Assembly (NCBI GenBank): GCA_003281385.1
Contig: QCCE01000002.1
Span: 62,001 to 126,000 of the forward strand
Direction of reading: 5' to 3'
DNA from: Prochlorococcus sp. AG-347-K17
GTDB lineage: Bacteria > Cyanobacteriota > Cyanobacteriia > PCC-6307 > Cyanobiaceae
DNA: 64,000 nt
In this document: positions 7,443 to 35,009 of the stretch, one piece after another
Position numbering within the stretch: the stretch's first letter is position 1
Layout of the letters: the number at the start of each line of letters is the position of its first letter
Position numbers and translations under genes: made by a program
Notes under the pieces: model-generated
Databases searched by the model: none
What the model was told of the DNA's origin: nothing
Seen by the model: only the letters and a program-made list of their open reading frames with translations

Positions 7443-7544
7443 CTAACTTGTATAAGCTTTGCCTCTGTAAGTAAGTTCATTATGCTGCTTCTTCGCTGCT
7501 TCTTTATTCTGGACGTACTTTTGTCCTCTGTAAATTAGAGTCAT
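7443..7544 (-). CDS. DUF4278-like tiny protein, 33 aa
   Basis: A 33-residue frame from ATG (7544) to TAG (7443) containing two copies of a YRG motif: LIYRGQKYVQ near the start and LTYRGKAYTS at the end. This YRG.(A/K)Y pattern is typical of the DUF4278 proteins common in cyanobacteria, of unknown function. A GGAG ribosome binding site sits about seven bases before the ATG. The message has a long, structured leader (see 7545-7640) and ends at the hairpin 7391-7437. Confidence 0.8.
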   Translation of the reverse strand: MTLIYRGQKYVQNKEAAKKQHNELTYRGKAYTS

Positions 7545-32200: not shown

Positions 32201-32222
32201 AAAAATAAGTTAGAGTTAATTT

Positions 32223-32396
32223 ACTGGATCTTTGGTTAAGTTCTTCTTTATGTGCTCTGATCTGACTCTCTTTCGACATGAGGAGACTGTCGTGATGCGG
32301 TAGTAAACCGATCTTGTAATCGGAAACGAAAGCCCACTTTGAATCCTCTTCTGGCATTTCCAGGTCGATGCAGCAGAGAACTGACGGGGATCCGGT
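32223..32396 (+). ncRNA. ssrS: 6S RNA (probable)
   Basis: A GC-richer segment directly after purK, the usual location of cyanobacterial 6S RNA. The ends pair perfectly: ACTGGATC (32223-32230) with GATCCGGT (32389-32396), eight pairs including one GU. Internal arms continue the long rod, for example GTTCTTCT near 32240 with AGAGAAC near 32375, with an unpaired centre around 32270-32330, as expected for the open-promoter mimic that binds RNA polymerase. Length of about 174 bases is right for 6S. True transcript ends may extend a few bases either side. No protein reading frame here is credible. Confidence 0.75.
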
Positions 32397-32509
32397 GTTA
32401 CCTATCAAAATGCTTGCTAAAACGGGCTTTTGGTGGGTATTTTATTTTTTTGGAATAACTGACCTGTTTTTATTCTCTATTAGTGTATGTAATTTATTTG
32501 CCAAAATAC

Positions 32510-32564
32510 TTGACGATCCATTTCTAATGTATTTATATTGATAGTACACATGTATTACTAATTA
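32510..32564 (+). promoter_or_regulatory. Promoter with LexA-like palindrome, DUF1651 gene copy 1
   Basis: A textbook sigma-70 promoter: TTGACG at 32510-32515, an 18-base spacer and TATATT at 32534-32539. Overlapping the expected transcription start is TAGTACACATGTATTA (32542-32557), whose halves TAGTACA and TGTATTA form an imperfect palindrome close to the cyanobacterial LexA box (RGTACNNNDGTWC, one mismatch). The ATG follows seven bases later, so the message would have almost no leader. The same arrangement occurs before the second DUF1651 gene. Confidence 0.65.
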
Positions 32565-32864
32565 ATGACTTTAGGAGGAGCTAATGTTTGGACTAATTTT
32601 TCTTACGGTTATCGTAATGAGTCCCCAAGTGGTTGGTTGCTTAGCCCAGACCGCAGCAGACTAATTTTATTCACAAGAAATAAAAAATCTCCAAGAAATA
32701 GTATGAGAATTTTTGCTCATACATATTATGCAAATGATCTTGGTGAGCCAATGGCAATTAAATCATCAACTCAAATGTATTTGGATAATGCTTGGGATAA
32801 ATGGCACGACCTTCAATTAGAAGGTTGGACTTTTGAAGAACTTGAATTACCTGAATCTGTATGA
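32565..32864 (+). CDS. DUF1651 family protein, copy 1
   Basis: A 99-residue protein typical of the DUF1651 proteins of Prochlorococcus: SGWLLSPDRSRLILF near residue 22, then YYANDLGEPMAIKSSTQMYLDNAWDKWHDLQLEGW, the GxP(x)n(A)W...L...GW signature. Function is unknown; several members of the family are reported as stress- or phage-responsive, which I state only as background. It starts a three-gene unit in which each stop overlaps the next start. An alternative frame with its own ribosome binding site lies inside (32584-32664). Confidence 0.82.
   Translation: MTLGGANVWTNFSYGYRNESPSGWLLSPDRSRLILFTRNKKSPRNSMRIFAHTYYANDLGEPMAIKSSTQMYLDNAWDKWHDLQLEGWTFEELELPESV
32584..32664 (+). other. Overlapping 26-codon frame inside DUF1651 copy 1
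   Basis: In the +1 frame of the DUF1651 gene, AGGAGGAG followed three bases later by ATG opens a 26-residue frame starting MFGLIFLTVIVMSPQVVGC and ending CLAQTAAD. It looks like a hydrophobic helix followed by a lipobox-like VVGC. The second DUF1651 gene holds a frame of exactly the same length at the same offset. Translation is unproven; the likeness may only reflect shared codons of the main frame. Confidence 0.35.
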
Positions 32865-33001
32865 CTAACTTAAATCCAATCAAAAAGAAATTATCAAAAG
32901 TAGATAGAAAGACATCTATGCGAGACCCATCAAAATTATTAGCAGAATTTTTTAATGGTGTTGTCATTGAGCTTGATGAAGAATATAAATATGACTCATA
33001 A
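32861..33001 (+). CDS. Small hypothetical protein, 46 aa
   Basis: A 46-residue frame whose ATG overlaps the TGA of the DUF1651 gene (ATGA), implying coupled translation. The protein is basic at the N-terminus (NPIKKKLSKVDRKTSMRDPS) and acidic at the C-terminus (IELDEEYKYDS), with a LLAEFFNGVVIEL helix in between. No family is recognised. Its own stop overlaps the start of the next gene at 32991. Confidence 0.7.
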   Translation: MTNLNPIKKKLSKVDRKTSMRDPSKLLAEFFNGVVIELDEEYKYDS

Positions 33002-33143
33002 AGAATTGATAGATCAAGTTTCCGCGAATTTATTTAAACAAAGTGGAAAGTTAGAAAGCAGAAGATCTTGGTTGGCAATGAGAAATTATCTTGAACAATT
33101 AGATACCGAACAACTTAAATCTATGCTTAAGGACCACGGATAA
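32991..33143 (+). CDS. Small hypothetical protein, 50 aa
   Basis: A 50-residue helical protein. I use ATG 32991 (MTHKELIDQVSANLF), which overlaps the preceding gene's TAA; a longer in-frame start at 32955 would lie fully inside that gene. Sequence features are amphipathic helices SRRSWLAMRNYLEQL and EQLKSMLKDHG. Third and last gene of the DUF1651 copy 1 unit. Confidence 0.68.
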   Translation: MTHKELIDQVSANLFKQSGKLESRRSWLAMRNYLEQLDTEQLKSMLKDHG

Positions 33144-33153
33144 TTTAAAAACT

Positions 33154-33267
33154 TTATTTAGTTTTTATTTTTTTCTTAATTCTCAGAAAACCGTAAGTTG
33201 CAAAGCCAACCAAAAACATATCCAAGTAAATATGCCAAGTAGGAAAAATCTGGTGTATTAATTCCAT
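33154..33267 (-). CDS. Tiny membrane protein, 37 aa
   Basis: A 37-residue frame (ATG 33267, TAA 33154): a short amphipathic start MELIHQIFPTWHIY, one hydrophobic stretch LDMFLVGFATYGFL and a basic tail RIKKKIKTK. Its ATG overlaps the stop of the ligase-like gene (TAATG), so it is probably translated from the same message. Function unknown. Confidence 0.55.
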   Translation of the reverse strand: MELIHQIFPTWHIYLDMFLVGFATYGFLRIKKKIKTK

Positions 33268-34016
33268 TAACGTTTTATTGCCACTTGCCAATAAGGATAA
33301 TCTAAATTTGATTTTTCTCTAATTAATTGTAATTTTCTAGAATTTATTTTTACTACTATTCCATCTATTGGATAGTTACTAAAAAGCTTCCCTTCTAGCC
33401 ATTGTTTTCTAAATACTTCAACTTGGCTCGTAAAGTTGCATGAAATATCCTGAGGGATCGTGAAGCCAAGCTTTGAAAGACTTTTTTTGGACTCATATTG
33501 GTTAAGTGTTGAATTAAGTATTTGAAATGCGCAGAGGCTAAGACTTTCAGAAAATCCTTCTTTAGCTCTTAGAAATCCAGAAGCGATTCTCTGGGAGATA
33601 TTTGGACTTTGGTTGGGTGCATATAATTCACCTCTAACTTGAAGAACTCCTCGTAAAGGAAGATTTTTGGGGATGTCTTGGACTTTAATAAGTTTACTAG
33701 TAACGTCTGCCCCTTTTCTTGTAATTGCTTTCTCCAGGGTTCCATCCCTATATTGCAAAGCAACAGCACAACCATCAATTTTTGGTTCAATTAATAATCT
33801 GGTATCTACTAATAATCCTTTCAAAAATTCATCTATTGAATCCTTTTCTAATGAAGGTAAAACTAGTTTATTTTTCTTTTTAAAGTAATCACAATTAGGG
33901 TTTGTTCTTAATAAATTTTTTTCAAGTTGGTCGAACTGCTTATCAGAGATTAAAGCATTCCCATTTCTATAATTATCGTCATACCACTCAATTCGTTCTT
34001 CTAAATAAGTTTTCAT
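33267..34016 (-). CDS. Stand-alone NAD-dependent DNA ligase-like adenylation protein
   Basis: A 249-residue protein that corresponds only to the N-terminal half of bacterial LigA. Residues 10-40 match domain Ia, the NAD-binding cap (YDDNYRNGNALISDKQFDQL). The nucleotidyltransferase core follows with the nucleophile lysine in EPKIDG (Lys79), VRGELYAPN, PIDGIVVKI and a shortened final motif YWQVAIKR. The OB-fold, zinc finger, helix-hairpin-helix and BRCT domains of a full ligase (about 670 residues) are all missing. It could still adenylate itself with NAD, but sealing nicks alone is doubtful. It sits in a minus-strand cluster between two LexA-like promoters. Confidence 0.85.
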   Translation of the reverse strand: MKTYLEERIEWYDDNYRNGNALISDKQFDQLEKNLLRTNPNCDYFKKKNKLVLPSLEKDSIDEFLKGLLVDTRLLIEPKIDGCAVALQYRDGTLEKAITRKGADVTSKLIKVQDIPKNLPLRGVLQVRGELYAPNQSPNISQRIASGFLRAKEGFSESLSLCAFQILNSTLNQYESKKSLSKLGFTIPQDISCNFTSQVEVFRKQWLEGKLFSNYPIDGIVVKINSRKLQLIREKSNLDYPYWQVAIKR

Positions 34017-34222
34017 TTAATAAGATGGCTTAAGTTTTTGGTCAGGTATCCAACTTGGCTTATCTATAATCCATTTTTCTCTATCTTCAAATTTAACAGT
34101 CCATAAAAGAAATGAAGAAATTTCTTTTAGAGTTATGCCAACCAAGTATCTTGTTTTTGGACTTATTGATATAAATCCAAATAAGAGTATTAATAAAATA
34201 AGCTTAAAGATACCTTAATCAT
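34017..34222 (-). pseudogene. Small membrane protein gene with a broken start
   Basis: From about 34212 down to TAA 34017 an open frame encodes a hydrophobic helix (FKLILLILLFGFISISP) and a soluble tail that includes LKEISSFLLWTVKFEDREKW. The only ATG nearby (34222) is in another frame and stops after ten codons; joining the two frames needs a one-base shift. Either the gene is newly inactivated, starts at an unusual ATT or ATC codon, or the sequence has an error. Its stop abuts the ATG of the ligase-like gene (TAA-ATG). Confidence 0.5.
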
Positions 34223-34253
34223 TTAAAAAATCAGCATAATTTTTGCGAACTTT

Positions 34254-34511
34254 TTAATTAATGCAATTCTTATAACCTTCAATCTTTGCTAGTTCTTCAA
34301 TATTCAAACCTGTTTCTTCTTGTAAAGTTTCTCCTATATCGTCCTTATTAAATTTAGTTAAAGCTCCTTTAGTAGAGTACTTAATACATTGGTTTTTGTA
34401 TTTTGCTTCTTTGACAACAGGAGATAAATAAAAACCAAACAAGATGATAAAAGCTCCATAGGTTACAACTTTTCTATGGTTTTTCCACCATTCATAAAAT
34501 TTATTGGACAC
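34254..34511 (-). CDS. Single-span membrane protein, 85 aa
   Basis: An 85-residue protein with a basic, aromatic N-terminus (FYEWWKNHRKVV), one membrane helix (TYGAFIILFGFYLSPVV) and a soluble tail with two cysteines. The PVVKEAKYKNQC stretch after the helix resembles PIIKHAKNKLDC in the 124-residue protein at 61494-61868, suggesting two members of one family. Function unknown. It lies upstream of the ligase-like gene on the same strand. Confidence 0.7.
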   Translation of the reverse strand: MSNKFYEWWKNHRKVVTYGAFIILFGFYLSPVVKEAKYKNQCIKYSTKGALTKFNKDDIGETLQEETGLNIEELAKIEGYKNCIN

Positions 34512-34580
34512 GAAAAATAAATGACTATTTTCTATTTTAAATTGACTGTCAACAAATTACTTTAGAAGTTTAAGGATTGG

Positions 34581-34889
34581 TTAATTTATTGTTTTTTCAT
34601 TAATAGATTTAACCCAAGAATAATATCTTGATTTTCTAATCCTTTGCTCTTTCGAAACTAATCTATCCGCAGATTCTAGGGGTGATTCTCCTTTCTTAAC
34701 TTTTGTTGTAATAGAAATACCAAAACCTCTTGCTTCAATTTTTGCAATGCCACCCTCTAAAAAAAATAAAAAAGACCAACCCTTGTTCCATCCTAAGTAG
34801 AAGGGATTTCGATACATTGCATTCTTTCGGAGATTCTCTTTAAATGATATTTTCCTTTTCAAGGAGTTACTTGTATTCAGTATTACCAA
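34581..34889 (-). CDS. Hypothetical protein, 102 aa
   Basis: A 102-residue basic protein. Its core runs from YRNPFYLGWNKGWSFLFFLEGG through IAKIEARGFGISITTKVKKGES to a lysine/arginine-rich C-terminus with SRYYSWV. An inner ATG (MYRNPFYLG, at 34817) would give 78 residues and may be the true start, since the first 24 residues are low in complexity. No family recognised. It is the first gene of the minus-strand cluster that contains the ligase-like protein. Confidence 0.6.
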   Translation of the reverse strand: MVILNTSNSLKRKISFKENLRKNAMYRNPFYLGWNKGWSFLFFLEGGIAKIEARGFGISITTKVKKGESPLESADRLVSKEQRIRKSRYYSWVKSINEKTIN

Positions 34890-34957
34890 ATAAGAAGTTT
34901 ATGGCTGATTATTTCTGGAAAGTAATTTTAGTTTTTAAATAATTACCAGAGGAACAC

Positions 34958-35009
34958 TTGACGCCTGCGAGTAGTACATTTATATTAATAGTACAACTGT
35001 ATTATCTTC
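34958..35009 (+). promoter_or_regulatory. Promoter with LexA-like palindrome, DUF1651 gene copy 2
   Basis: TTGACG (34958-34963), a 17-base spacer and TATATT (34981-34986) form a strong promoter. TAGTACAACTGTATTA (34989-35004) overlaps the start point and has exactly the same halves, TAGTACA and TGTATTA, as the site before DUF1651 copy 1. Five bases later the ATG follows. An extra TAGTACA half site lies at 34972-34978 between -35 and -10. Confidence 0.65.

Follow-up and report, generated by a model that had tools for sequence, protein, structure and literature searches.

In a 64,000-nucleotide (nt) stretch of Prochlorococcus sp. AG-347-K17 (contig QCCE01000002.1, positions 62,001 to 126,000; hereafter the window), two small operons each open with a gene of the DUF1651 family, and each gene stands behind a promoter and a palindrome of the same kind, which raises the question of which regulator would act on both. 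These promoters and palindromes had been described in an earlier note on this DNA, and their coordinates and letters proved correct on direct reading (Table 1). In both copies the palindrome (TAGTACACATGTATTA for gene 1 and TAGTACAACTGTATTA for gene 2) starts 2 nt 3′ of TATATT, so that the operator abuts the core promoter, and the ATG codons follow at 32565 and 35010. Our results suggest that both palindromes are very probably LexA operators, through which both operons would be repressed and, after DNA damage, induced with recA, lexA and umuDC; a joint onset of both would be a reasonable expectation.

Rank of the two probable operators in the genome

The sites were scored with a matrix built from 20 of the 24 marine picocyanobacterial boxes in Table 1 of PMC3091678 (two ssb sites and two unnamed sites were omitted, and none came from the window). 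It was applied in the own genome to the sites with at most two mismatches from the symmetric form and to the two lexA boxes, i.e., as a ranking of near-matches and not as a whole-genome matrix scan. The resulting order was recA (21.1 bits), a 68-aa ORF at C9:675 (17.8), operator 1 (17.1), operator 2 (16.4), C11:6880 (16.4), lexA (15.7, with a tandem box at 12.1), a third DUF1651 gene (15.2) and umuDC (14.1). Ranked in this way against the recA, lexA and umuC boxes, as the earlier note had proposed, both window sites stand between recA and lexA among the listed near-matches, and the concern that this strain might use a different box at recA and lexA did not hold, its recA, lexA and umuDC boxes being of the same motif. 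In the whole window, the next-best site after both operators reaches 10.2 bits (at 7514).

The claim that the sites lie one mismatch from the cyanobacterial LexA box stands when it is read against the published Prochlorococcus motif TAGTACA-N2-TGTACTA, from which both window palindromes differ by one base; a match to the loose motif RGTACNNNDGTWC is uninformative by itself (15 window matches with one mismatch vs 11.3 expected). Only four exact copies of TAGTACANNTGTATTA exist in the genome (1.50 Mb), all of them 5–7 nt 5′ of an ATG, and two are the operators described here. With at most one mismatch to the symmetric form, nine places were found in the genome, including recA, umuDC, the third DUF1651 gene and several small open reading frames (ORFs).

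Conservation and spread of the box before DUF1651 genes

Conservation was followed in two sets of relatives whose genomes are partly shared, i.e., 32 relatives fetched by place (set A) and the best 80 of 361 relatives (set B). A box of at least 14 bits precedes gene 1 in 31 of the 32 members of set A (in the remaining one, L119, the sequence starts too late for a judgment) and gene 2 likewise in 31 of 32. In set B, a box of at least 13 bits was present in all 75 relatives where gene 1 was found (by pattern, three more loci had room without gene 1, and two had no room) and before gene 2 in 78 of 80, the other two reaching 10.6 and 10.7 bits. Base changes in the boxes of the relatives are concentrated at the central positions. 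The weaker second box of copy 2 (TAGTACATTTATATTA) scored 9.4–10.8 bits in the five relatives inspected (L289–L292 and L090).

The family as a whole splits into boxed and box-less members. Among five complete Prochlorococcus genomes, in which the locus was readable for 30 of 31 DUF1651 hits, 14 of the 30 genes carry a box of 12.0–17.1 bits located 85–95 base pairs (bp) before the domain, and the other 16 lack any site above 4.2 bits within 420 bp. By eye, boxed proteins mostly read GWLxNP...LGEP and box-less ones mostly DxGxI..LG..PPxM; three of the six DUF1651 genes of the own genome are boxed.

A first search of the genus, read at its 29 best-scoring loci, gave a box directly 5′ of DUF1651 in six, no 10-bit site in 22, and in L076 a box only 3′ of the gene. 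Beyond the genus, DUF1651 is present in 27 of 32 genomes selected from other genera, and at 30 loci from these we found 20 sites of at least 11 bits (in 19 loci) within the 9,900 positions directly 5′ of the domain, vs five in the 86,238 positions elsewhere at the same loci, three of which still lie 374–405 bp 5′ of DUF1651. Counted within 460 bp 5′ of the gene, 22 of the 30 loci have such a box. Sense-strand TTGAC occurs within 45 bp of the box in 18 of these 22, as compared with one for its reverse complement GTCAA, and it lies 24–26 nt before the box in 15. From this spacing, the box would lie on the −10 element in other genera, whereas it lies on the expected start site in the window copies. 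The exact palindrome with an ATG 3–14 nt 3′ was found in all six genomes of the window's genus and in 5 of 145 others (the reversed pattern gave one match); two of the five other-genus matches have a clear gene (SSPYA/DUF1651 and DUF3104, respectively) and three do not. Rank, conservation in relatives and boxes at DUF1651 genes of other genera strongly support the LexA control proposed for both window genes, and we conclude from these sequence comparisons that one DUF1651 branch would form an SOS gene family specific to the marine picocyanobacterial clade.

Weighing LexA control and its trigger

The own genome encodes a LexA with DNA-binding and S24 peptidase domains (NCBIfam lexA, 187 bits), in which the Ala-Gly pair and the GDSM serine are present and the catalytic lysine is not pinned by the alignment, together with umuC carrying IMS domains and a full-length recA ORF (recognized by eye). 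As long as the DNA is intact, the palindrome, which lies at the start site behind the −10 element, would be occupied by a LexA dimer that blocks the sigma-70-type promoter. Ultraviolet (UV) light, replication blocks or phage attack on the host chromosome would let single-stranded DNA accumulate, RecA filaments formed on it would lead to the self-cleavage of LexA, and both small operons would then be switched on along with recA, lexA and umuDC. Operator sequence, rank, position, conservation and genus spread were computed here, and binding, cleavage and induction would follow from the LexA pathway. In support of LexA control, the lexA box of strain MED4 shares the GTATT half (PMC3091678, Table 1).

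What DUF1651 proteins would then do is a guess of low confidence, i.e., that after damage they take part in replicating or repairing DNA, to the advantage of some phages. SulA, SidA, YneA and TisB are SOS-induced small effectors of other bacteria. The likeness of the window genes to them is one of outline, as small clade-specific proteins under what would be direct LexA control.

Several observations weigh against LexA control or soften its support. The matrix scores of recA and lexA are inflated because the training set contains boxes identical to theirs in this genome (but neither window site), and the published boxes behind the matrix are largely predictions themselves. A first-order Markov background predicts 1.15 sites of at least 15 bits per genome; the score by itself is thus no proof, and position and conservation therefore carry the case. 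The relative L090 has only two weaker boxes before gene 2 (10.1 and 10.8 bits), and eight of the 30 other-genus loci lack an 11-bit box within 460 bp. As to expression, mitomycin C raised only 15 of 27 predicted LexA genes in CC9311 and 10 of 46 in WH8102, according to the results given in PMC3744912, and UV-exposed PCC9511 is described in PMC2921402 with repair genes slightly affected and a lexA pattern nearly unchanged. In MED4, a third boxed DUF1651 gene (12.0 bits) is absent from the phage-induced genes named in PMC5490813, and the ORF at 654112–654294, taken as PMM0686, has no LexA box of its own. PMM0686 is reported as the most phage-induced MED4 host mRNA (PMC2518516) and may be read through from PMM0684. 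As a side observation, this 60-amino-acid (aa) ORF (L244) resembles the start of ClpS with 20.9 bits, below the cut-off of 23.

The MED4 genes matter since they link the window to phage infection. Gene 1 is the positional counterpart of PMM0684 because the order purK–6S RNA–DUF1651 is common to the window and MED4, where we located the 6S RNA at 652620–652804 and the Cyano-1 RNA at 654509–654576; PMC1242208 places yfr7 (652625..652844) between purK and PMM0684, and yfr3 at 654511..654604. An antisense RNA to PMM0684, asMED4_07401, is listed in PMC2518516. For PMM0819, the published place of PMM0817 (773,638; PMC7852597) is covered by the MED4 HLIP gene at 773484–773693, and we infer that the DUF1651 gene at 774456–774755, the only one of six near PMM0817, is PMM0819; it resembles gene 1 in sequence. 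These two genes carry the strongest DUF1651 boxes of MED4 (17.0 bits for PMM0684 and 17.1 bits for PMM0819), and of the other four, one has the 12.0-bit box and three have none.

It is possible, if somewhat short of probable, that the operons are LexA-repressed and respond mainly to phage infection or to light or oxidative stress instead of UV, the phage benefiting, a variant that does not exclude induction by DNA damage. DUF1651 is said to be widespread among marine cyanobacteria, with several members reported to rise in phage infection, and PMM0684 and PMM0819 are reported to rise during infection by P-SSP7 (PMC5490813). In the same source, a mutant of the SYNW1659–SYNW1658 operon, whose second gene encodes DUF1651, yields fewer phages, a phenotype that may, per its authors, stem from the DUF3387 gene; nor could they say whether the rise is a stress response of the host or is brought about directly by the phage. 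The nearly unaltered lexA pattern of PCC9511 also fits such a trigger, and damage-driven induction is favored by the rise of recA, lexA and umuC with mitomycin C reported for two marine Synechococcus (PMC3744912) and by that of recA after UV reported for MED4 (PMC2955971). Note that a search for phage-borne DUF1651 (one other-genus query, E 0.1) gave no match in 50,697 phage records, the copy of coliphage ECBP5 mentioned in PMC5490813 not having been looked at, and that a PHROG search with three DUF1651 proteins assigned no family.

It appears improbable that the palindrome serves another dimeric regulator whose site looks like that of LexA and that it resembles the SOS box only incidentally: LexA-like sites do occur in cyanobacteria without lexA, for which other regulators were suggested (PMC3091678), but here the window sites score among the recA, lexA and umuDC boxes of their own genome, and a second regulator would need to have the full motif in common across the family. 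Chance matches in an AT-rich genome, suggested by the lack of enrichment of the loose motif, can be practically dismissed, as the placement of the four exact palindromes before ATG codons and the density of sites 5′ of DUF1651 in other genera speak against them and the conservation of the boxes in relatives already contradicts them.

With LexA control retained for both operons, the window sites resemble the described cyanobacterial LexA regulon (Li et al. 2010, PMC3091678; Kolowrat et al. 2010, PMC2921402) in operator class, predicted regulator and place at the core promoter, a regulon that includes recA, lexA and umuDC. The main text of PMC3091678 names neither DUF1651 nor PMM0684 or PMM0819, which its supplementary tables may list. 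In turn, PMC5490813 deals with the same family and with the counterpart of gene 1 (PMM0684) as well as the gene-1-like PMM0819 and mentions LexA nowhere (0 times), the LexA operator being proposed in the present analysis. A search of the literature for DUF1651, for the locus tags of MED4, and for LexA in connection with Prochlorococcus, cyanophages or the SOS response found no paper joining DUF1651 and LexA, the supplement of PMC3091678 being outside its scope. We thus call these new SOS genes under an already known regulator, an earlier listing in that supplement being possible.

Surroundings, nested frames and possible meaning for the SOS response

Table 1. Features of the two DUF1651 operons and their neighborhood (window coordinates; the gathering cut-off of Pfam PF07864, DUF1651, is 22 bits, and both window genes are above it)
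Feature	Position	Strand	Remarks
6S RNA	32218..32402	+	Rfam RF00013, 92.3 bits; between purK and gene 1
Promoter 1	32510..32539	+	TTGACG 32510–32515, N18, TATATT 32534–32539; read from sequence, kept in relatives
LexA-type operator 1	32542..32557	+	over expected start site; 17.1 bits
DUF1651 gene 1, 99 aa	32565..32864	+	Pfam PF07864, 41.4 bits; positional counterpart of MED4 PMM0684
Nested +1-frame ORF in gene 1, 26 codons	32584..32664	+	hydrophobic; AGGAGG upstream; coding status uncertain
46-aa ORF	32861..33001	+	overlaps gene 1 stop; peptide signature in 69/80 relatives
50-aa ORF	32991..33143	+	loose peptide signature in 70/80 relatives
Ligase-like protein, 249 aa	33267..34016	−	NAD-dependent DNA ligase adenylation domain, KIDG motif
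Promoter 2	34958..34986	+	TTGACG 34958–34963, N17, TATATT 34981–34986; read from sequence, kept in relatives
Weaker second LexA-type box, copy 2	34972..34987	+	covers −10; 9.4 bits
LexA-type operator 2	34989..35004	+	16.4 bits
DUF1651 gene 2, 96 aa	35010..35300	+	Pfam PF07864, 48.8 bits
Nested +1-frame ORF in gene 2, 26 codons	35029..35109	+	hydrophobic; coding status uncertain
Cys-rich, Zn-ribbon-like protein, 77 aa	35303..35536	+	Cys pattern from translation; signature in 75/79 relatives with room

The 46-aa and 50-aa ORFs likely share the operon of gene 1, and the 77-aa Cys-rich protein is likely the operon partner of gene 2; Pfam searches assigned no family to the 46-aa ORF or to the Cys-rich protein, a MED4 paralogue of which is a stand-alone gene behind a perfect palindrome. 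Gene 2 has its best matches in entries named Prochlorococcus or uncultured Synechococcaceae, and these, together with the MED4-like gene order, indicate a host of the high-light type of Prochlorococcus. Between the operons, on the opposite strand, the ligase-like gene is kept in 77 of 80 relatives. Its product hits two PHROG families of NAD-dependent DNA ligase, 3869 and the shorter 3359, and no ligase domain other than the adenylation domain was found. The notion of a DNA-stress island with this gene under common SOS control is not supported: within 200 bp 5′ of it, a LexA box of at least 11 bits was found in none of the 77 relatives (best 4.9), and the neighbors adjoining gene 1 upstream are purK and the 6S RNA.

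Both DUF1651 genes also contain a nested hydrophobic +1 frame that reads MFGLIF... and is preceded by AGGAGG or CAGGAG. Each of the 64 gene copies in set A (32 of 32 for gene 1) keeps it intact; in set B it is shortened in one of the 75 gene 1 copies, and its start is kept in 80 of 80 gene 2 copies, one of them a codon short. The nested ATG is lost in one paralogue (L066). In gene 2, the first half of the overlap shows 3 of 29 possible synonymous main-frame changes vs 52 of 110 in the rest of the gene (p = 0.0002, uncorrected for relatedness), the whole overlap shows 10 of 51, and 14 of 25 changes in the first half are silent in the +1 frame vs ~31% expected. Gene 1 displays no significant depletion (18 of 48 in the whole overlap vs 41 of 109; first half 4 of 24, p = 0.058, likewise uncorrected), and only one of eight changes in its first half is silent in the +1 frame. 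Thus the nested frame appears to show signs of selection in gene 2 only. RNA structure as a cause of the conserved gene starts was rejected, as folding was no better than that of shuffles (z 0.91 and 0.77). That LexA-controlled transcripts would encode two products, DUF1651 and a 26-residue hydrophobic peptide, seems rather unlikely to us; translation of both frames would make for an SOS module in which small proteins are overprinted, one of them perhaps a membrane peptide resembling TisB or SidA, the likeness being in size and character only.

The same operator occurs before other small genes. In MED4, ten places lie within one mismatch, of which nine score at least 12.7 bits and the tenth (1469821) lies inside an ORF with 0.0 bits; the boxes precede a Zn-ribbon-like gene, recA, umuD, two DUF1651 genes, a DUF3104 gene, a 78-aa ORF with a hydrophobic stretch, a 70-aa ORF and an SSPYA ORF. 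The latter type, a 65–68-aa ORF with SSSPYA near its start, was seen behind tandem LexA-type boxes at C9:655-690 of the own genome (L046) and at L135, L136, L140, L143 and L248. At seven of the 30 other-genus loci, an SSPYA ORF starts just 3′ of the box and overlaps, out of frame, DUF1651 (five loci) or a Zn-ribbon-like ORF (two). With a loose pattern, a box-like sequence turns up within 60 nt of each of the 13 distinct SSPYA ORFs, a count that is not independent since the loci were fetched via box or DUF1651. In the window's genus, the SSPYA, Zn-ribbon and DUF1651 pieces lie apart from one another, each with a LexA box of its own before it.

In addition, C11:6880 of the own genome (L047) and MED4 30264 (L230) carry, 3′ of a LexA-type box, a 75–78-aa ORF whose product combines a hydrophobic stretch with a Cys-containing C-terminus and is a candidate for an SOS membrane protein; the 75-aa form has no Pfam family. 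A DUF3104 gene (77 bits) lies directly behind a LexA-type box at MED4 323616 (L231), and an ORF that looks similar to it, by appearance and not by Pfam, stands behind an exact palindrome in L123 of another genus. Finally, a 70-aa ORF with no Pfam family lies ~15–17 nt behind a 12.7-bit LexA-type box at C1:104193 of the own genome (L042) and at MED4 1103475 (L236).

Altogether, genes without known function would be added to the SOS response of Prochlorococcus, the use of which was described as yet to be established (PMC2955971). The operator predicts which family members respond, i.e., boxed DUF1651 genes would do so and box-less ones would not, and because it is conserved, the question of host-stress vs phage-driven induction becomes directly testable. 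LexA boxes could thereby explain why related DUF1651 genes switch on under viral attack.

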